From an uncultured Erysipelotrichaceae bacterium (lineage in GTDB: Bacteria; Bacillota_I; Bacilli_A; Erysipelotrichales; Erysipelotrichaceae), in assembly GCA_902796465.1 (NCBI GenBank), contig CADBPK010000325.1, forward strand, positions 1 to 18,936: a stretch of 18,936 nucleotides of DNA, in the 5' to 3' direction. Within the stretch, counting starts at the first letter, position 1; every line of letters begins with the position of its first letter. Below, piece by piece: positions 3,857 through 18,936 of this stretch. A program made the position numbers and the translations under genes. Under the pieces are notes generated by a model, which searched no databases, had not been told where the DNA came from, and was given only the letters and a program-made list of their open reading frames with translations.

Positions 3857-3910
3857 AAAAAATGTAAACATGTAGTTGTTTTTGTGCACTTTTCATGTTG
3901 GTGATCTTTC

Positions 3911-3915
3911 AGGAG
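3911..3915 (+). promoter_or_regulatory. Ribosome site fixing the coiled-coil gene start at 3921
   Basis: AGGAG with a 5-nt gap to ATG 3921. The same frame is open back to TTG 3876, but that codon lies close to the predicted transcription start and has no ribosome site. Confidence 0.75.
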
Positions 3916-3920
3916 ATATC

Positions 3921-4427
3921 ATGGCAGAACAGGAACTCAGAAAACTGAAGAGAGCGGAACTGCTGGAAATGATGATCGAGCAGGGAAGGGCAGTAGCCAG
4001 ACTCCGCATGGAATTGCAGCAGAAAGATACCCGTATCGAACAGCTGGAAGCCGAACTGATTATCCGTGAAGACGCGATGGATCGTCTGAATGAAAAGATG
4101 GAGCGCCAGGAAAAACTGATGCTGGAGAAGGAAGAGAAACTGAAAGCTCAGGATGCGGCATCTGAACGCCAGGTCAAGGCGATGGGTGTTATCTACAAGA
4201 AACAGAAACGACAGCTGGACGGAAAAGACGCGAAGATCGAACTGCTGGAAAGGGAGATTAGGGAACTCAGGGAAAAAGCAATCGGTATCACGAAAACGGA
4301 TACACCGGAGCAGGCCGCCAGGAAACTGGACCGCGCACTTGAGCAGGCAAAGACCGCAAGCGACATGTATATGGAAGTCTTGAAGAAGGACAGAAAAGAC
4401 AGGTTGAGGGGCCGGGATCAGAAATGA
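3921..4427 (+). CDS. Coiled-coil protein, unknown function
   Basis: A 168-residue, highly charged protein with no signal peptide or membrane segment, so probably cytoplasmic. It begins MAEQELRKLKRAELLEMM, and heptad-like runs of Leu, Ile and Met with Glu, Lys and Arg cover about residues 5-120 (a long coiled coil). A shorter helical tail follows around TPEQAARKLDRALEQAK. The start at ATG 3921 is set by AGGAG at 3911. Its stop overlaps the signal peptidase start by 4 nt (ATGA), so the two are translationally coupled. Similar small coiled-coil proteins beside signal peptidase and surface-protein genes are familiar to me from clostridial genomes, but I know of no assigned function. A scaffold or a partner for the membrane peptidase is a guess. 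Confidence 0.8.
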   Translation: MAEQELRKLKRAELLEMMIEQGRAVARLRMELQQKDTRIEQLEAELIIREDAMDRLNEKMERQEKLMLEKEEKLKAQDAASERQVKAMGVIYKKQKRQLDGKDAKIELLEREIRELREKAIGITKTDTPEQAARKLDRALEQAKTASDMYMEVLKKDRKDRLRGRDQK

Positions 4428-5005
4428 ACCAGGAAACAATGACGGAATATTCCATGGAACAGCTTACTGAGGAGCGGGAACGGGAAAAGTATAAAAAGAG
4501 TTTCTTCTCATCCCTGAAAAGTACTATATATATGCTGATAACTGTCGCGGCTGTGGCGGTCCTGATCGCTGTGCTGGTCATGCCGGTGCTGCAGATCTAC
4601 GGGAATTCCATGTCACCGGCACTGACAGAAGGCAATATCGTATTGTCTGTCAAGGGCAGCAAGTTCAAGACAGGAGATGTCATAGCGTTTTATTACAACA
4701 ACAAGATCCTGGTTAAGCGTGTGATCGCTCAGCCGGGGGAATGGGTCAATATCGATCAGGACGGAACGGTATATGTCAATTCCGCAGCAATCGATGAACC
4801 ATACATTTCAGAGAAGGCATTTGGTGAGTGTGACCTGAAACTTCCTTACCAGGTGCCGGAATCACGTATCTTTGTGATGGGAGATCACAGAAGCGTGTCC
4901 ATAGATTCGCGAAATACATCAATAGGTTGTGTGGCAGAAGAGCAGATCGTAGGGAAAGTAGTGTTCCGCGTCTGGCCGATTACTTCATTCGGGCCGGTCC
5001 ATTAA
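4424..5005 (+). CDS. lepB: Type I signal peptidase, pilus-locus associated
   Basis: Membrane serine protease that removes signal peptides from exported proteins; 193 residues, the size of Gram-positive SipS/LepB enzymes. There is an N-terminal cytoplasmic stretch, one transmembrane helix (about 34-57), box B GNSMSPAL with the nucleophile Ser62, box D with Lys98 in VKRVIAQPGE, and box E GDHRSVSIDSR (153-163; GDN is more usual than GDH). The Ser/Lys dyad marks the bacterial LepB class rather than the Ser/His SipW class. It overlaps the coiled-coil gene by ATGA and lies 63 nt before the adhesin, so it probably serves the adhesin and pilin. Signal peptidases of this kind inside pilus islands are known to support pilus assembly. 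The symbol names the family only. Confidence 0.9.
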   Translation: MNQETMTEYSMEQLTEEREREKYKKSFFSSLKSTIYMLITVAAVAVLIAVLVMPVLQIYGNSMSPALTEGNIVLSVKGSKFKTGDVIAFYYNNKILVKRVIAQPGEWVNIDQDGTVYVNSAAIDEPYISEKAFGECDLKLPYQVPESRIFVMGDHRSVSIDSRNTSIGCVAEEQIVGKVVFRVWPITSFGPVH

Positions 5006-12904: not shown

Positions 12905-12927
12905 GATCAGTTTAAAGATTTATTTAT

Positions 12928-12932
12928 GGAGG
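12928..12932 (+). promoter_or_regulatory. Ribosome site fixing the zinc-ribbon gene start at 12941
   Basis: GGAGG lies inside what would be the first codons of an ATG at 12926 and is 8 nt before ATG 12941. This makes 12941 the likely start. Confidence 0.8.
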
Positions 12933-12940
12933 ACACCGGT

Positions 12941-14578
12941 ATGGCAAACAGGAATATTGCGGATATATACTGCCCGAACTGCGGAGCGCCTGCGCGTTTT
13001 GATATCCGGCGTCAGATGTATGTGTGCGGGCACTGCGGCGGGAACGTGAAGATCGATGAAGCACAGAAACAGAGAACAGGTTTCCGTCAGCTGGCGCAGT
13101 CCCGTATGCAGGATGAAGTAAAGAATTACAAACTGATCAGGGCAGACTGTCCCGGATGCGGTGCTGAGATCGTGTTTGAAGAGAACGAAGCACTTTCCGA
13201 CTGTGCATTCTGCGGGAAAGCACTGGTAAGAAAAGAATACCTGTATACAGAAGATATGCCGGAAATGATCATACCTTTCCGTATTACGGAAGATGAAGCA
13301 GAACAATTTCTGCGTGAATGGTGTGATCAGAACAAAGATAAACGAGAAGCCAGGCATATCCGAAAGTACATCAAGGATCTGAAAGGCTTTTATCTGCCGT
13401 ACGAGCTGATCTGCGGACCGATCAGCTGTACTGTGTCCAGGATTGATGGCGGTAAAAACTATTTCTGCGGCGGATATATCGACGAGGTATTTATCAACTG
13501 TTCGAAACAGCTCGATAACCTGCTGCTGGACGGTATGGAACCGTATGAACTGGATGAACTGAAGGAATTTGATTTTGCCTATACAGCCGGACAGAGAATC
13601 AAAATCAGGGATATCAATACAGAGGAACTGGGAAAACGTGTGGAGGCAGAAGTCAGCGAATCGTATACACCCGCTGTACGGAAAACACTGGAGACCAAAG
13701 CGGTGGAGATCGATACTGATGTGCATTCCGTTTTCAGGATGCCGGTGCTTCTGCCGGGATATTATCTGAAATGCGGCAATACCATAGCGGCAGTCAACGG
13801 GCAGACCGGAAAGGTCAGTGTGCGTGCCGCAAAGGAATCACATTATTATTTCCTGCCATGGTGGCTTAAAGCAATTCTTGCGACAATTCTGATCAGTGCA
13901 GTATGTTTTGGCGGCCTGCGTCTGTTCCGCGCTGACAACGCAACAGCCTTGTACCTGACAGGAATACTTGCAATGTTCTTTTTAATCGTAACCCTCTGTG
14001 CTTACAGTGACACGTATCATACAGATTTCGCTGTGAAATCGGGATATAAAGTCTTCCTGTCGGAAGGGGGTGCCTGGCGCAGGGAAAACGGTGTCCTCGT
14101 TCAGGATACGGAAGAACTGAAGAGGAATGTAACAGAACCGGTATTCTTTGAAAAGATAGACGGCAAAGAACAGTCAGTGGTCCTGCGGTTTACTACGCCG
14201 CAGAGAATTATCAGAATGGGACTGCTGGCATTGTTCGTCATATTTCTGCCGGTCGTGCTGGCTTTGTTTATAAACGGATTTAACTTCAAACAGTTGGAAC
14301 TCGGAGGATCAGCCGTCTGGTTCTGTATATTCCTGCCTGTTGTCCCGATCTATGTTCTGAAATTCGGCATCATCGAATTATACGAAAGACCATGGATCTG
14401 GCTGCTTTCAGAAGACGGAAAGAAAAAACGATATCATAAACCGGTCGACTGGAAAGGTATTGGGAAATGGATCCTGTCGGGACTGAAATATCTGTTTATC
14501 CCGCCGGTGTGCTTTGCCATATGGCTGGGAATTGCCAGTTTCTGCGTTATTGTTTATCTGACTGCTTTCGGTTTCTGA
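12941..14578 (+). CDS. Membrane protein with two N-terminal zinc ribbons
   Basis: Function unknown. The 545 residues begin with two four-cysteine zinc ribbons: Cys11/14 with Cys29/32 (CPNCG...CGHC) and Cys70/73 with Cys88/91 (CPGCG...CAFC). Then comes a soluble region with MIIPFRITEDEA and GFYLPYE, and the strand NGQTGKVSV (about 286-294). Membrane segments follow at roughly 307-330, 336-355, 425-445, 462-482 and 512-540. The IIPF, LPY and NGQTGK motifs recall bacterial TFIIB-like zinc-ribbon membrane proteins such as Bacillus YdjG; this is a resemblance from memory, not a search. It is not a PriA helicase, a common misannotation of such ribbons. It stands between the pilin terminator and a nitroreductase with its own promoter, so it is probably monocistronic. 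Confidence 0.8.
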   Translation: MANRNIADIYCPNCGAPARFDIRRQMYVCGHCGGNVKIDEAQKQRTGFRQLAQSRMQDEVKNYKLIRADCPGCGAEIVFEENEALSDCAFCGKALVRKEYLYTEDMPEMIIPFRITEDEAEQFLREWCDQNKDKREARHIRKYIKDLKGFYLPYELICGPISCTVSRIDGGKNYFCGGYIDEVFINCSKQLDNLLLDGMEPYELDELKEFDFAYTAGQRIKIRDINTEELGKRVEAEVSESYTPAVRKTLETKAVEIDTDVHSVFRMPVLLPGYYLKCGNTIAAVNGQTGKVSVRAAKESHYYFLPWWLKAILATILISAVCFGGLRLFRADNATALYLTGILAMFFLIVTLCAYSDTYHTDFAVKSGYKVFLSEGGAWRRENGVLVQDTEELKRNVTEPVFFEKIDGKEQSVVLRFTTPQRIIRMGLLALFVIFLPVVLALFINGFNFKQLELGGSAVWFCIFLPVVPIYVLKFGIIELYERPWIWLLSEDGKKKRYHKPVDWKGIGKWILSGLKYLFIPPVCFAIWLGIASFCVIVYLTAFGF

Positions 14579-14602
14579 CCAAAAGCTTTTTGTGCATCAT
14601 CC

Positions 14603-14631
14603 TTGCGAAAAAATCATGGTGACCATATGAT
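14603..14631 (+). promoter_or_regulatory. Promoter of the plus-strand nitroreductase
   Basis: TTGCGA (14603-14608), an exact 17-nt spacer and TATGAT (14626-14631, five of six), 27 bp before the ATG at 14659. An AGGAGG site lies between promoter and start. Confidence 0.6.
14616..14626. promoter_or_regulatory. Palindrome ATGGTGACCAT in the promoter spacer (candidate operator)
   Basis: Perfect inverted repeat ATGGT-G-ACCAT whose right end touches the -10. A close relative, ATGGATACCAT on the minus strand at 15874-15884, lies upstream of the other nitroreductase. The position suggests repression; the regulator is not identified. Confidence 0.5.
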
Positions 14632-14658
14632 CAAAGTGAAAAAACAGGAGGAATTCAA

Positions 14659-15171
14659 ATGGAATTCAAGGAAGTGATCAGACAGCGTTATTCATGCAAA
14701 AAATACAGTGACATACAGGTGGAGAAAGAAAAGATCGATTCTATCCTCGAGGCAGGAAGACTGGCACCGACAGCGAAGAACCTGCAGGAACAGCACATCT
14801 ATGTGATACAGTCAAAAGAACTTCTTGAAAAGATCGATACTGTAACACCGTGCCGGTACGGCGCGCCGACAGTGATCGTTGTTGCTTATGACAAGACCAA
14901 TGTCTTTACATATCCGGGCGGGAAACGGGATTCCGGTGTGGAAGATGCTTCGATCGTCGCAACACATTTGATCCTTGCGGCAGAGGATGAAGGTGTAAAC
15001 AGCTGCTGGCTCAATTTCTTTGATCCGGATCAGGCGGCGCAAGTGCTCGGTCTGCCTGAGAACGAGGAGATATTAATGTTGATGGATCTGGGATATGCTG
15101 CAGATGGCGCAGGTCCGCTTCCAAATCATGGGAACAGAAAGTCATTGTCAGAAACGGTAACCTGGCTCTGA
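14659..15171 (+). CDS. Nitroreductase-family flavoprotein
   Basis: Probable FMN-dependent oxidoreductase of 170 residues, at the short end for the family. The N-terminus EVIRQRYSCKKY is the RxRxSxRxY-type FMN phosphate contact. EAGRLAPTAKNLQEQHIYVI corresponds to the APTAxNxQP segment, and the DASIVATHLILAAEDEGVNSCW helix is the usual dimer and flavin region. The true substrate (quinone, nitro or ene compound) cannot be told. ATG 14659 has AGGAGG 7 nt upstream. It has its own promoter with a palindrome in the spacer and ends at a bidirectional terminator facing a second nitroreductase on the other strand. The two proteins look like distant paralogues. Confidence 0.85.
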   Translation: MEFKEVIRQRYSCKKYSDIQVEKEKIDSILEAGRLAPTAKNLQEQHIYVIQSKELLEKIDTVTPCRYGAPTVIVVAYDKTNVFTYPGGKRDSGVEDASIVATHLILAAEDEGVNSCWLNFFDPDQAAQVLGLPENEEILMLMDLGYAADGAGPLPNHGNRKSLSETVTWL

Positions 15172-15192
15172 TATCATTTACAAAATATATAC

Positions 15193-15221
15193 AAAAAGTC
15201 AGGAGTAGTTCTGACTTTTTT
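15193..15221. terminator. Bidirectional terminator between convergent nitroreductases
   Basis: AAAAAGTCAG (15193-15202) is perfectly complementary to CTGACTTTTT (15211-15220) around an 8-nt loop. The A-run and T-run give U-tracts on both strands. It can end both the plus-strand gene (stop 15171) and the minus-strand gene (stop 15265). Confidence 0.88.
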
Positions 15222-15264
15222 GCTGGATGAAAAACCCATATCCGGTATGGATATGGCAGATTGA

Positions 15265-15789
15265 TCAGATTCTGTAGATGTAGTTTCCTTTTCTCGGAGC
15301 AGGTTCTTTGGTGGGTTCTGCAGGGTAGCCGAGGATCAGATGTCCGATTCCTTCATAATCACCTTCGATGCCGAGGTCTTTCAGGATAGCTTTGCCTTCT
15401 TCGCTTTCGAATTCTTCCTTTGCCCTGTGGATCCAGCAGCTTCCGATACCGAGATCAGCTGCGGCATTCATCATGTTTCCCATAACGAGACTGCCATCAT
15501 AGAGGTATGTACGTACATTTTTATCTGCCAGTACGATCAGCAGTTCAGGAGCTCCGTAGAATGGATCCATCTCCATCTGCCCACCCATTACTGCAGCGTT
15601 CATTGCGGAGAGTTTATCCCGCATTGCTTTGTCCGTAACCGCAATAATGATCGGGGACTGCTTTCCCATACCTGTTGCGGCATATGTGCCTGCTTCAATA
15701 ATTGCATTGAGTTTTTTTTCTTCGATCAGATCCGGTTTATACGATCTGCAGCTGCGTCTTGTTTTCAGTGTTTTCAATGTTTCAGCCAT
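15265..15789 (-). CDS. Nitroreductase-family flavoprotein (minus strand)
   Basis: Second FMN-dependent nitroreductase-like enzyme, 174 residues. It has TLKTRRSCRSYKPDLIEEKKL (FMN-contact Arg and Ser), EAGTYAATGMGKQSPIIIAV (the segment before the first strand), and DLGIGSCWIHRAKEEF, the conserved GIGSCWI helix. The C-terminus PAPRKGNYIYRI is family-like. The start is supported by GGAGG 6 nt before the ATG at 15789. It is the only minus-strand gene in the window and converges on the first nitroreductase at a shared terminator. The common ancestor was probably old, since only the general family pattern is shared. Substrate unknown. Confidence 0.85.
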   Translation of the reverse strand: MAETLKTLKTRRSCRSYKPDLIEEKKLNAIIEAGTYAATGMGKQSPIIIAVTDKAMRDKLSAMNAAVMGGQMEMDPFYGAPELLIVLADKNVRTYLYDGSLVMGNMMNAAADLGIGSCWIHRAKEEFESEEGKAILKDLGIEGDYEGIGHLILGYPAEPTKEPAPRKGNYIYRI

Positions 15790-16024: not shown

Positions 16025-16053
16025 TTGAAAAACGGGTAGTTTGATGCTATTGT
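16025..16053 (+). promoter_or_regulatory. Promoter of the sortase/BsaA-like operon
   Basis: TTGAAA (16025-16030, five of six), an exact 17-nt spacer, and TATTGT preceded by TGC, an extended -10 (16045-16053). This is one of the better promoters in the window. It gives a leader of about 105 nt to ATG 16168 or about 35 nt to ATG 16093. Confidence 0.65.
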
Positions 16054-16167
16054 TTATAAGGATAACTGTCTTTTTCTGCGCGCATATCATGAATGCAGAA
16101 AAACAGCAAAATTCCACAGCAAAGAACGATACATGCATTTGTAGCATATTACCGGGACTGGATATTC

Positions 16168-17040
16168 ATGAGTGAAGACAAAACACAAAGCAAAAAGAAA
16201 AATGACCGTCTGATCAATGCAGTCCTTGCTGGGATTCTGGTACTGGGTCTGGGACTTCTGGTATATCCGACATTTGCCAACTGGTGGAACAGTTTTCACC
16301 AGTCAAGGGCAGTTGCCTCGTATATGAAAGCTGTTGCGAACCTGGATCCGGAAGAATACGACAAAGTAATCTCGGAAGCGGAAGCGTACAACGGACGTCT
16401 GGCTATGACAGGCATCCTTTGGCACATGGATGCTGCACAACTGGAAGAGTACAACCGGATCCTGGATATTACAGGGACCGGAATCATGGGTTATATCGAT
16501 ATCCCGAAAGCCTCTGTTACACTGCCGATTTATCATGGTTCTGATGAGGCAGTCCTGCAGGTCGCTGTCGGTCATCTGGAAGGCACCAGTCTTCCTGTCG
16601 GAGGCGCAAGCAGTCATTGCGTCGTGACCGGTCACAGGGGTCTGCCAAGCGCCAGACTGTTTACGGATATAGATAAACTCGTTAAAGGAGATACGTTTAC
16701 GATCTCGGTCATGAACCGGACATTGACCTATGAAGTCGATGACATCCATATCGTTGAGCCAACGGATCTCAGCAACATCTCAATTACACAAAATCAGGAT
16801 TATTGTACTCTAGTAACATGTACCCCATACGGCATCAACAGCCACCGCCTGCTGGTTCGGGGAAAGCGTACAGAAAACGCTGCCGGCACGGCAAATGTAA
16901 CAGCTGATGCCATGCAGCTGAAGCCGGTATATGTCGCACCGCTGGTAGCGACACCGATGCTGTTTGTATTACTGCTTGGGATACTGATCAAAACAAGAAA
17001 ACCAAAACCGAAAAAGGAGGGGGACAGCCATGGTGAATAA
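16168..17040 (+). CDS. Class C (pilin-polymerising) sortase
   Basis: Membrane transpeptidase that joins pilin-like subunits; 290 residues. It has two membrane segments, N-terminal (about 14-34) and C-terminal (about 255-276), the double-anchor layout of class C enzymes. The catalytic triad is His156 (VVTGHRGLP), Cys218 (TLVTCTPYG) and Arg227 (SHRLLVRG). MGYIDIPKASVTLPIYHG and GTSLPVGGASSH are typical of the class. The lid motif DP[FWY] is missing where expected; WHMD (85-88) is found. ATG 16168 (MSEDKTQSKKK) gives the usual short basic tail, but its ribosome site is weak. ATG 16093 would add 25 residues and has none either. The 3' end overlaps the next gene by 11 nt, so it leads an operon of at least four genes. 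It may also polymerise the LPETG pilin 3.4 kb upstream. Confidence 0.92.
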   Translation: MSEDKTQSKKKNDRLINAVLAGILVLGLGLLVYPTFANWWNSFHQSRAVASYMKAVANLDPEEYDKVISEAEAYNGRLAMTGILWHMDAAQLEEYNRILDITGTGIMGYIDIPKASVTLPIYHGSDEAVLQVAVGHLEGTSLPVGGASSHCVVTGHRGLPSARLFTDIDKLVKGDTFTISVMNRTLTYEVDDIHIVEPTDLSNISITQNQDYCTLVTCTPYGINSHRLLVRGKRTENAAGTANVTADAMQLKPVYVAPLVATPMLFVLLLGILIKTRKPKPKKEGDSHGE

Positions 17041-18142
17041 GTGGAAGAAGCATATCCGCGTGCTGGCAGCTTTTATGTTGGGCATAGCGGCTGTGCATTG
17101 CATTCCAGGGGAAAGTATCAATGCCGTGGACATATCTGACGACGCAACTTACATACTGGACATTGAACTGGCCGGTGAGAATACCGGATATCTGGAGGAT
17201 CTGGAAAAAGCCAATACGACGGTTGATTTTTACCGCGTCGCTACGCTGATCCCGGATCCGAAATATGATACCTATTCATTCAACAGCCTGATCGATTTTT
17301 CCATTGACGGGAAGAAAGTCGATCTCAGTAAGTATGATGTACTTTCCAAACTGGATGCGGAAAAATGGGACCAGCTCAGCGAACAAGCTGCGGAAAAGGT
17401 ACTGCCTGACGGAACCGGATTTGATAAAAAAGTCAGCACAACATCTGACAGTATTTCTTTGAACCCGGGTCTTTGGCTGGTCGTACCGCATGATACGACA
17501 CAGATCCAGGCAGAAGACAAGGATCTGCCGGAGGGAATCATTTCCCTTGTCCATACACCGCGCTATACCTATGTTTACAGACCGCAGCTGATCGCTGTTC
17601 CGACGACGGACAACGGCTCGACAGACGGTACCTGGCAGAGCAGGAGTACAGCGACTCTGAAACCGGAGAGGCTGAAAAGATATGCAAAGATTCTCGTCAC
17701 GAAAGATCTGCTGAAGTATGAAACCACGACAGAGGCAACATTTGTCTTTGAAGTAAAGGCATCCTATAACCAGGATATGAGTGATCCGGTCTACAACAAC
17801 GTAGTGGCACTGACATTCTCCGCAGCCGAATCGCAGTCGCATCTGTTCGATGATATACCGGCAGATACATTTGTACAGGTTACGGAGACCTATGACGGAA
17901 GTTCCTATACCAAAGAATATTCCGCTGATGATATCCGGCATATTGAGGCATATAAAATTGGAGATGAGGGAGATGAGATAGAAGAATTCAAATTCGGAAA
18001 CTCCTATGACAAGCCTCCGAGAAGCGGTTCCGGCATCAATAACCACTTTGACCAGAGAAAAGATGATCCGGCAAAGTGGAGCTGGGACAAGGAATACAAG
18101 ACAGGGGATTATGAAGAAACGACAGGAGGTACAGAACAATGA
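17030..18142 (+). CDS. Secreted pilin-like protein without a sorting signal
   Basis: A 370-residue exported protein of unknown function. There is an N-terminal signal segment (about 7-32), then a beta-rich domain (about 37-190) containing SISLNPGLWLVVPHD, like the PGLYLV strand of pilin D1 domains. A second beta domain (about 216-325) has ILVTKDL near its start and IPADTFVQVTETYDG near its end, a Cna_B-like K...E layout that could make an isopeptide bond. The tail is polar and ends TGGTEQ. There is no LPxTG, hydrophobic helix or basic tail, so it cannot be sorted in the ordinary way. ATG 17030 has GGAGG 9 nt upstream and lies inside the sortase gene; its stop overlaps the next start (ATGA). 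A fibre accessory or a protein held by the next gene product is plausible. Confidence 0.8.
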   Translation: MVNKWKKHIRVLAAFMLGIAAVHCIPGESINAVDISDDATYILDIELAGENTGYLEDLEKANTTVDFYRVATLIPDPKYDTYSFNSLIDFSIDGKKVDLSKYDVLSKLDAEKWDQLSEQAAEKVLPDGTGFDKKVSTTSDSISLNPGLWLVVPHDTTQIQAEDKDLPEGIISLVHTPRYTYVYRPQLIAVPTTDNGSTDGTWQSRSTATLKPERLKRYAKILVTKDLLKYETTTEATFVFEVKASYNQDMSDPVYNNVVALTFSAAESQSHLFDDIPADTFVQVTETYDGSSYTKEYSADDIRHIEAYKIGDEGDEIEEFKFGNSYDKPPRSGSGINNHFDQRKDDPAKWSWDKEYKTGDYEETTGGTEQ

Positions 18143-18612
18143 AGAAATATAAAATTGTTCTTGCGGTACTTGCGGTCATAATGATCCTGTCCCTTTCCGT
18201 GCAGGGTGCCATGGCGTACTTTACGACCTATGTCAGGGTCAAAGGAACCATTCCCCTGAACCTGCATGAAAAAACAACGATCACGGAAGAAGTCGTTGAA
18301 GGCGAGAAGATCGTAACGATCTCCAATACGGGAACTGTTCCTGTATATGTACGCGCAAAGGCGATTGCGCCTTCAACAGTTACGCTGAAATATAACACTG
18401 ACAGCAATCCTGACTGGACAGACGGCAATGACGGTTACTGGTATTACGGACCGATGCTGATGGGCGGCAGTGAGGAAAACCCGACACAGGCTTCTCCTCT
18501 GCATATCAAGATCGAATTGCCTGAAAACAGCGAACAGACGGAGATCAATGTAGTTGTACTTTATGAGGCAACACATTCCATCGATAATAACGGCAATGCC
18601 GTTTGGGAATGA
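18139..18612 (+). CDS. BsaA/TasA-like protein with SipW-type signal peptide
   Basis: Probable extracellular fibre-forming matrix protein, 157 residues. The signal segment (about 5-26) ends GAMAYFTTY, the AYFT pattern of SipW-processed proteins. The mature part is a beta sandwich with IVTISNTGTVPVYVRAKAIA (58-77) and GYWYYGPML (99-107), a pattern typical of BsaA-family SipW-dependent matrix proteins and more distantly of TasA and CalY. There is no anchor motif. AGGAGG is 9 nt before the ATG, which overlaps the previous stop (ATGA). The signal peptidase at 4424 is a Ser/Lys enzyme, not SipW, so a SipW gene is expected outside the window. The family call rests on remembered motifs. Confidence 0.8.
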   Translation: MKKYKIVLAVLAVIMILSLSVQGAMAYFTTYVRVKGTIPLNLHEKTTITEEVVEGEKIVTISNTGTVPVYVRAKAIAPSTVTLKYNTDSNPDWTDGNDGYWYYGPMLMGGSEENPTQASPLHIKIELPENSEQTEINVVVLYEATHSIDNNGNAVWE

Positions 18613-18623
18613 GGTGAGAGACG

Positions 18624-18936
18624 ATGCTGAATAAGAAAAGAAAAATGCGCGTCTCCCCCGGAACACTGATTCTGGGTATCCTGGCTGCAGTCCTTCTGAC
18701 AGTCGGGACGATCGGCGGCGCAAGAGCGGCTCTCACGATCTTTTCCAATGATTATGATTCCCATATCGAAATGTATGAGATCGGTATTACATTACGGGAA
18801 AGCAACGAAAAAGACGGAGCGAATTCCGTTGCCCGCACCAGCCGTAATTATGCGGTAGGACACGAAACAGAAGCACAGAACTGGCATGAAACCCATGGGG
18901 AGATCCTGCAGGACCTCCTGGCAAAGCACGGTGACA
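18624..18936 (+). CDS. SipW-type secreted protein, cut by the window end
   Basis: Open from ATG 18624 to the last base without a stop; 104 complete codons are visible. AGGTGAG lies 6 nt upstream. A basic head (MLNKKRKMRV) and a hydrophobic segment (about 14-33) lead into GGARAALTIFSNDYDSHIEM, the ARAALT...Y...IEM pattern I associate with SipW-type exported proteins of clostridia, followed by YEIGITLRES. The rest is outside the window. It continues the operon 11 nt after the BsaA-like gene and may be a partner subunit. ATG 18645 is an alternative but poorer start. Confidence 0.8.
   Translation, partial: MLNKKRKMRVSPGTLILGILAAVLLTVGTIGGARAALTIFSNDYDSHIEMYEIGITLRESNEKDGANSVARTSRNYAVGHETEAQNWHETHGEILQDLLAKHGD

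Follow-up and report, generated by a model that had tools for sequence, protein, structure and literature searches.

We suggest that the 18,936 bases of DNA analyzed here (the window), which make up the entire contig C325 of the draft genome G000 of an uncultured Erysipelotrichaceae bacterium, contain the second half of a SpaA-type sortase pilus locus whose base is unusual. In this model, which we favor on balance, the pilus is attached to the cell independently of sortase. The class C sortase would join the last shaft pilin, through the Thr of its LPxTG motif, to lysine K211 of a Cna-like basal-type pilin and in this way terminate the pilus. The C-terminal domain and tail of the Cna-like protein would dock without sortase onto two small SipW-type proteins, Sip1 and Sip2, which would be processed by a SipW peptidase and assemble through a TasA-like strand-donation link, while the products of two further open reading frames (ORF), ORF5 and ORF6, would hold the Sip assembly at the membrane or wall. 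Giant adhesins that share this terminal domain would be held by the same module as well.

The sortase scores 272 bits against the model NF033745 (cut-off 160) and is, by this measure, a pilus-specific class C enzyme. The same contig encodes tip and shaft pilins with LPxTG motifs and SpaA or isopeptide-forming domains, i.e. the components of a SpaA-type pilus (Table 1), and the LPxTGG motif and K170 of the major pilin do not vary among the 11 aligned pilins. An earlier note on this DNA had described a pilin-type sortase that is tightly coupled to genes whose complete products lack an LPxTG motif, and had proposed the nearby pilin or a downstream gene product among its possible targets. These descriptions are borne out: the sortase and Cna-like genes overlap by 11 nucleotides, the Cna-like gene and sip1 meet in ATGA, sip1 and sip2 are separated by an 11-nucleotide gap, and neither the Cna-like protein nor Sip1 has the motif. 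As for the target, an LPxTG gene ends less than 1.5 kb before the first sortase gene in 50 of the 61 related loci for which more than 700 upstream bases were available. Because of this synteny and the motif, we infer that the LPxTG pilins are the substrates of the class C sortase and, as far as sequence can tell, the enzyme belongs with the tip and shaft pilins of its own contig.

By its sequence, the Cna-like protein is a basal-type pilin with K211 at the acceptor place and without a wall sorting signal. Its profile matches the first domain (D1) of SpaA, and K211 aligns with the pilin-motif lysine of SpaA and is invariant (66 of 66 Cna proteins). The protein thus combines a D1-like domain with a lysine at the linking place, as a basal pilin does, with the linkage itself predicted from the alignment. 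Its CnaB domain has the residues K225, E286 and N324 and is followed by a GxGxxNxF tail. Of the parts of a C-terminal sorting signal (LPxTG-like motif, membrane segment and basic tail) that a basal pilin should also have, the window protein has none. The same holds widely for the membrane segment, which is lacking in 71 of 73 Cna proteins encoded beside sip genes (66 of 280-430 residues and seven of 434-518 residues, with pieces at contig ends excluded), including all 66 of the usual length.

For comparison, D1-type homologues were collected from 392 genomes of the phylum; matches occurred in 14. Seven serve as controls, namely the uncut D1-type homologues of less than 400 residues without a GxGxxNxF tail, one per genome; pilins of at least 500 residues, matches to the CnaB part only, a cut 166-residue piece in G199 (L180) and the sip-positive locus L165 were left out. 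All seven, from genomes without a sip2 match, have a C-terminal membrane segment, and six have a sorting-like motif (LPYTG, LPQTG, IPQTG, KTGD or PPNT). For the missing membrane segment (71/73 versus 0/7), Fisher p = 1.1e-8, with the lineages not independent and the homologues distant. Unlike the seven control genomes, G576, which encodes a homologue with the tail, has a sip2 match. In three loci, a basal-type pilin with a sorting signal is followed by a small sortase of uncertain class (L170, 2132-2737; L171, 630-1190; L176, 2214-2795).

Sip1 and Sip2 are, from their profile matches, distant relatives of BsaA. The BsaA model TIGR04090 is matched at E <= 0.01 by 35 of 60 Sip1 proteins (best 2.3e-9) and 47 of 62 Sip2 proteins (best 4.9e-11), and the Sip1 profile is related to the Sip2 profile with 95.7% probability; full-length Sip2 relatives have about 240-300 residues. 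Thus, the relation to BsaA that the earlier note had proposed holds across the family at a distance, while Sip1 of the window, with 21.7 bits, stays below the TIGR04090 cut-off of 60 for the BsaA family; it also scores 13.5 bits against the SipW signal model TIGR04088 (cut-off 19). Sip1 has the predicted fold of an Ig-like sandwich in which residues 21-40, which follow the signal helix and contain the invariant F28 and G36, are modeled with low confidence. TasA subunits donate an N-terminal strand (residues 28-38) to the subunit that follows, as described in PMC9674648; by analogy, the N-terminal stretch in the Sip1 model fits strand donation.

The same note had gone further and proposed a covalent TasA/BsaA-like fibre made by this sortase, i.e. 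that the enzyme covalently polymerizes or attaches the SipW-type proteins themselves. The tight gene coupling and a sorting-like tail on the ORF5 proteins of relatives would fit such a role. However, a C-terminal membrane segment is found in 0 of 67 Sip1 and 0 of 72 Sip2 proteins, and the module occurs in two genomes without a detected sortase. Moreover, the sortase-linked BsaA fibre of Clostridium perfringens that the note had mentioned is contradicted by PMC7395162, in which deletion of srtB, located beside sipW, leaves the pellicle and the BsaA profile unchanged and recombinant BsaA from Escherichia coli likewise polymerizes. Because srtB is not needed for BsaA polymers, this argues against a covalent fibre, and we regard this explanation as very improbable.

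Gene order in relatives places the Sip proteins next to the pilus base. When the Cna-like protein was searched against 272 genomes of the family, 22 of them, including G000, had matches, and 13 longer stretches were annotated; neighbors were counted in the best 80 of 135 confirmed Sip2-profile loci. (Eight of the 80 lie on the same contigs as earlier loci; they are retained in the neighbor tables and excluded from the counts of proteins and ORF5 tails.) The conserved order is usually an LPxTG pilin gene followed by srtC - Cna - sip1 - sip2 - orf5 - orf6 - SipW peptidase gene, with intervals that are mostly overlaps or short gaps. Sip1 is encoded upstream of Sip2 in 73 of the 80 loci, and ORF5, ORF6 and the SipW peptidase downstream of it in 76, 65 and 63, respectively. 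The peptidase that the earlier note suggested seeking past position 18936 is therefore present in most related loci, while the window contig ends before it could be seen; in two relatives it scores 81 and 87 bits against TIGR02228 (cut-off 51.85) and remains under the cut-off for Bacillus SipW. A class C sortase gene and a Cna gene both lie upstream in 66 of the 80 loci, more than one class C-type sortase gene lies 5' of the Cna gene in 26 (L055, L058, L066, L089, L110, L122 and others), and a class C sortase is encoded somewhere in the stretch in 70. This linkage exceeds chance. Of the remaining ten loci, whose stretches encode no class C sortase, three are cut by a contig end (L064, L098, L103) and seven have a giant gene instead of the Cna gene (L061, L063, L080, L087, L095, L104, L109).

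Elsewhere, the place of the Cna gene is taken by genes for proteins of approximately 1400-4700 residues with the same CnaB domain and tail at their end. In all 13 giants counted (the short or cut pieces L061, of 89 residues, L064, L098 and L103 are excluded), the match to the Cna profile begins at position 40-47, i.e. behind the D1 part, and a C-terminal membrane segment is absent; 11 of them are encoded directly 5' of sip1. The longer stretches around the complete giants L125-L131 contain no class C sortase match. G106 and G121, which have the giant form of the locus and are draft assemblies (95% and 80% complete), gave no sortase match in the genome search; the sip module is present in both, and their ORF5 proteins retain the membrane segment (L063, L095, L098). 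Giants 3650-4670 residues long, in which no C-terminal anchor is obvious, are encoded at L125 (4615-18624), L127 (3737-14689), L129 (2578-14571) and L130 (3426-15131).

These giants, and the absence of a sorting signal from the basal-type pilin, bear on a rival explanation, namely that two machines share one operon: a sortase pilus with the Cna-like protein as a secreted minor pilin and a separate TasA/BsaA-like biofilm fibre of Sip1 and Sip2, co-expressed and without contact. It would account for the match of Sip1 and Sip2 to the BsaA family and for the SipW peptidase downstream in relatives, and TasA and BsaA form extracellular matrix fibres according to PMC9674648 and PMC7395162. Yet it leaves unexplained why a basal-type pilin without a sorting signal is found where sip genes occur and why the same genes also adjoin giant adhesins that share its C-terminal domain, and we consider it rather unlikely. 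In extension of the anchoring model, we tentatively propose that the SipW-type module may be a general sortase-independent anchor in gut Firmicutes and their relatives that recognizes a CnaB domain with a GxGxxNxF tail and holds either a pilus base or an adhesin of 1400-4700 residues.

The downstream proteins of relatives allow yet another division of labor. ORF6 has a C-terminal membrane segment in 57 of 58 cases, and ORF5 a membrane segment, a loose TG-type motif and a basic tail in 60 of 68; among the same 68 ORF5 tails, 53 contain TGD or TGE and 32 contain KTGD, and the control basal pilins L167 and L173 likewise end in KTGD. The sorting signal may thus have moved from the basal pilin onto a separate protein, ORF5. 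In a rival reading, ORF5 is the true wall-anchored base with its TGD tail fixed by a class B or C sortase, the Cna-like protein docks on ORF5, and Sip1 and Sip2 are mere chaperones. The TGD and TGE tails argue for it, as do a match of 8 of 44 ORF5 proteins to the sortase B target model and the endings LPQTGD and LPQTGE that PMC5536039 gives for the lactobacillar basal pilins SpaB and LrpB, with TGG in the tip and shaft tails. Also, several carrier genomes encode class B-like sortases: the only sortase of G213 (100% complete) is closest to class B, and among ten further sortases of carriers that were classified, nine are nearest to class B, with five of them scoring above the class B cut-off, and one is nearest to classes E/D. 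By contrast, the class C sortase is the sole sortase match in the genome searches of G000 and G069, and the ORF5 membrane segment is kept in the two sortase-less genomes. We regard this reading as improbable and retain the model in which the Sip proteins take part in anchoring. As separate observations, G118 additionally has the pilus-type locus L044, G116 has another strong sortase match, and a class B-like sortase gene adjoins the SipW gene in L043 (9292-10047), L128 (15108-15854) and L131 (6614-7387), similar to srtB beside sipW in C. perfringens (PMC7395162).

Several observations weigh against sortase-independent anchoring by the Sip proteins. Most generally, the shared position and domain are equally expected if the module is only co-regulated with the pilus. 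TasA is absent among the 50 fold matches listed for Sip1 and among the PDB sequence matches. Several other carriers have a second sortase, mostly nearest to class B, that could anchor ORF5 or the pilus and, because G000, G106 and G121 are drafts (95, 95 and 80% complete), the absence of sortases from them is uncertain. The contig ends before the positions of ORF5, ORF6 and the SipW peptidase in G000 (2.0 Mb in 333 contigs), and this trio is known from relatives alone. Since the window spans the whole of C325, Sip2 is truncated by the assembly; this piece is the single sip2 match in the genome search, and there was no orf5 match in this search, for which the query had no positive control. Three genes (3.3 kb) unrelated to the pilus lie between pilin and sortase in the window, unlike in relatives, in which the pilin mostly adjoins the sortase. 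In three relatives of the same genus (L033, L035, L036) the pilin is divergent; these loci are among the 11 of 61 without an LPxTG gene in the 1.5 kb before the sortase and have a signal peptidase gene between the sortase and Cna genes.

The evidence on the basal-type pilin and the giants has its own exceptions. At the motif distance before K211, 63 of 66 proteins have W. Two of the seven longer Cna proteins (L066, L070) have a C-terminal membrane segment, with no TG motif by the pattern used. The control L172 lacks a sorting motif, and some of the controls, whose matches to the Cna profile are weak, may be other minor pilins. In G199 the picture is mixed: the genome has sip genes as well as LPxTG pilins about 520 residues long, and no basal pilin was assigned in it. 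Its diverged sip1-sip2-orf5-orf6 set lies at one place (L182) and its LPxTG pilins elsewhere; the 3.4-kb stretch of L182 has no Cna-domain match. Among the giants, L125 is followed by another giant gene, the stretch of L127 has no sip gene, and the stretches of L063, L080, L087, L095, L104 and L109 start inside the giant gene, leaving the upstream region unseen.

The remaining features of the window are listed in Table 1. Homologues of the signal peptidase I lie within the pilus loci of relatives, either 5' of the pilin gene or between the sortase and Cna genes, and genes resembling the one directly 5' of it precede the signal peptidase gene in some relatives, e.g. L037 and L038. Promoter-like sites are no commoner here than in shuffled sequence.

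Table 1. Features of the window and their coordinates.
Feature	Coordinates	Strand	Remarks
Small coiled-coil-like protein	3876-4427		Directly 5' of signal peptidase
Signal peptidase I (LepB-like)	4424-5005	+	Starts pilus gene set
Large tip-type adhesin, 1835 residues	5069-10576	+	Fibro-slime and SpaA domains, LPHTGG tail
Major pilin, 605 residues	10963-12780	+	Isopeptide-forming domain, LPETGG tail
Zinc-ribbon membrane protein and two nitroreductase-like genes (putative names)	12926-15789		Separate major pilin from sortase
Promoter-like site	16025-16053	+	TTGAAA-17-TATTGT, TG before second hexamer
Class C (pilin) sortase	16093-17040	+	NF033745
Cna-like protein, basal-type pilin, 370 residues	17030-18142	+	D1-like and CnaB domains, GxGxxNxF tail
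Sip1, 157 residues	18139-18612	+	SipW-type signal peptide, predicted Ig-like sandwich, distant BsaA relative
Sip2, N-terminal 104 residues	18624-18936	+	Open at contig end, distant BsaA relative

In many gut species, a basal-type pilin without a sorting signal adjoins BsaA-like genes, and this arrangement suggests that surface fibres may be attached to the cell differently. If the module is an anchor, it unites in one structure sortase pili and SipW/TasA fibres, which are thought of as separate, and reveals what holds many unannotated giant adhesins of the gut. The individual parts are of known kinds, and the combination of a sortase pilus with a SipW-type base module was not found in the literature searched; the anchoring principle would be new if docking holds.

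Compared with SpaA-type pili (Corynebacterium SpaABC, C. perfringens CppA and lactobacillar SpaCBA), the locus agrees in its class C sortase, in the LPxTGG motifs of its tip and shaft pilins and in a basal-type pilin of two domains whose lysine occupies the pilin-motif position. In sortase pili, anchoring involves a handover to the housekeeping sortase, which acts on the sorting signal of the basal pilin, as outlined in PMC5536039. Here, however, the basal-type pilin lacks LPxTG motif and membrane segment, a SipW-type module is added, and no second sortase was found in G000. The locus shares with the sipW-bsaABCRSD operon of C. perfringens, which encodes the BsaA matrix fibre, a SipW peptidase (in relatives), BsaA-family proteins and a sortase nearby; in that operon, as reported in PMC7395162, the sortase is dispensable for the fibre, whereas here Sip1 is under the BsaA cut-off, the sip genes follow a basal-type pilin gene, and ORF5 and ORF6 are present in relatives. 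The tapA-sipW-tasA operon of Bacillus subtilis and the TasA/CalY/CapP proteins of B. cereus likewise comprise a small beta-sandwich protein with a SipW-type signal peptide, and the account of the B. cereus TasA/CalY system in PMC13082335 describes it as sortase-independent with a wall-associated chaperone. Sip1 has its conserved low-confidence stretch after the signal peptide, where TasA has the N-terminal donor strand (PMC9674648). Unlike these TasA systems, the module described here accompanies either a sortase pilus or a giant adhesin.
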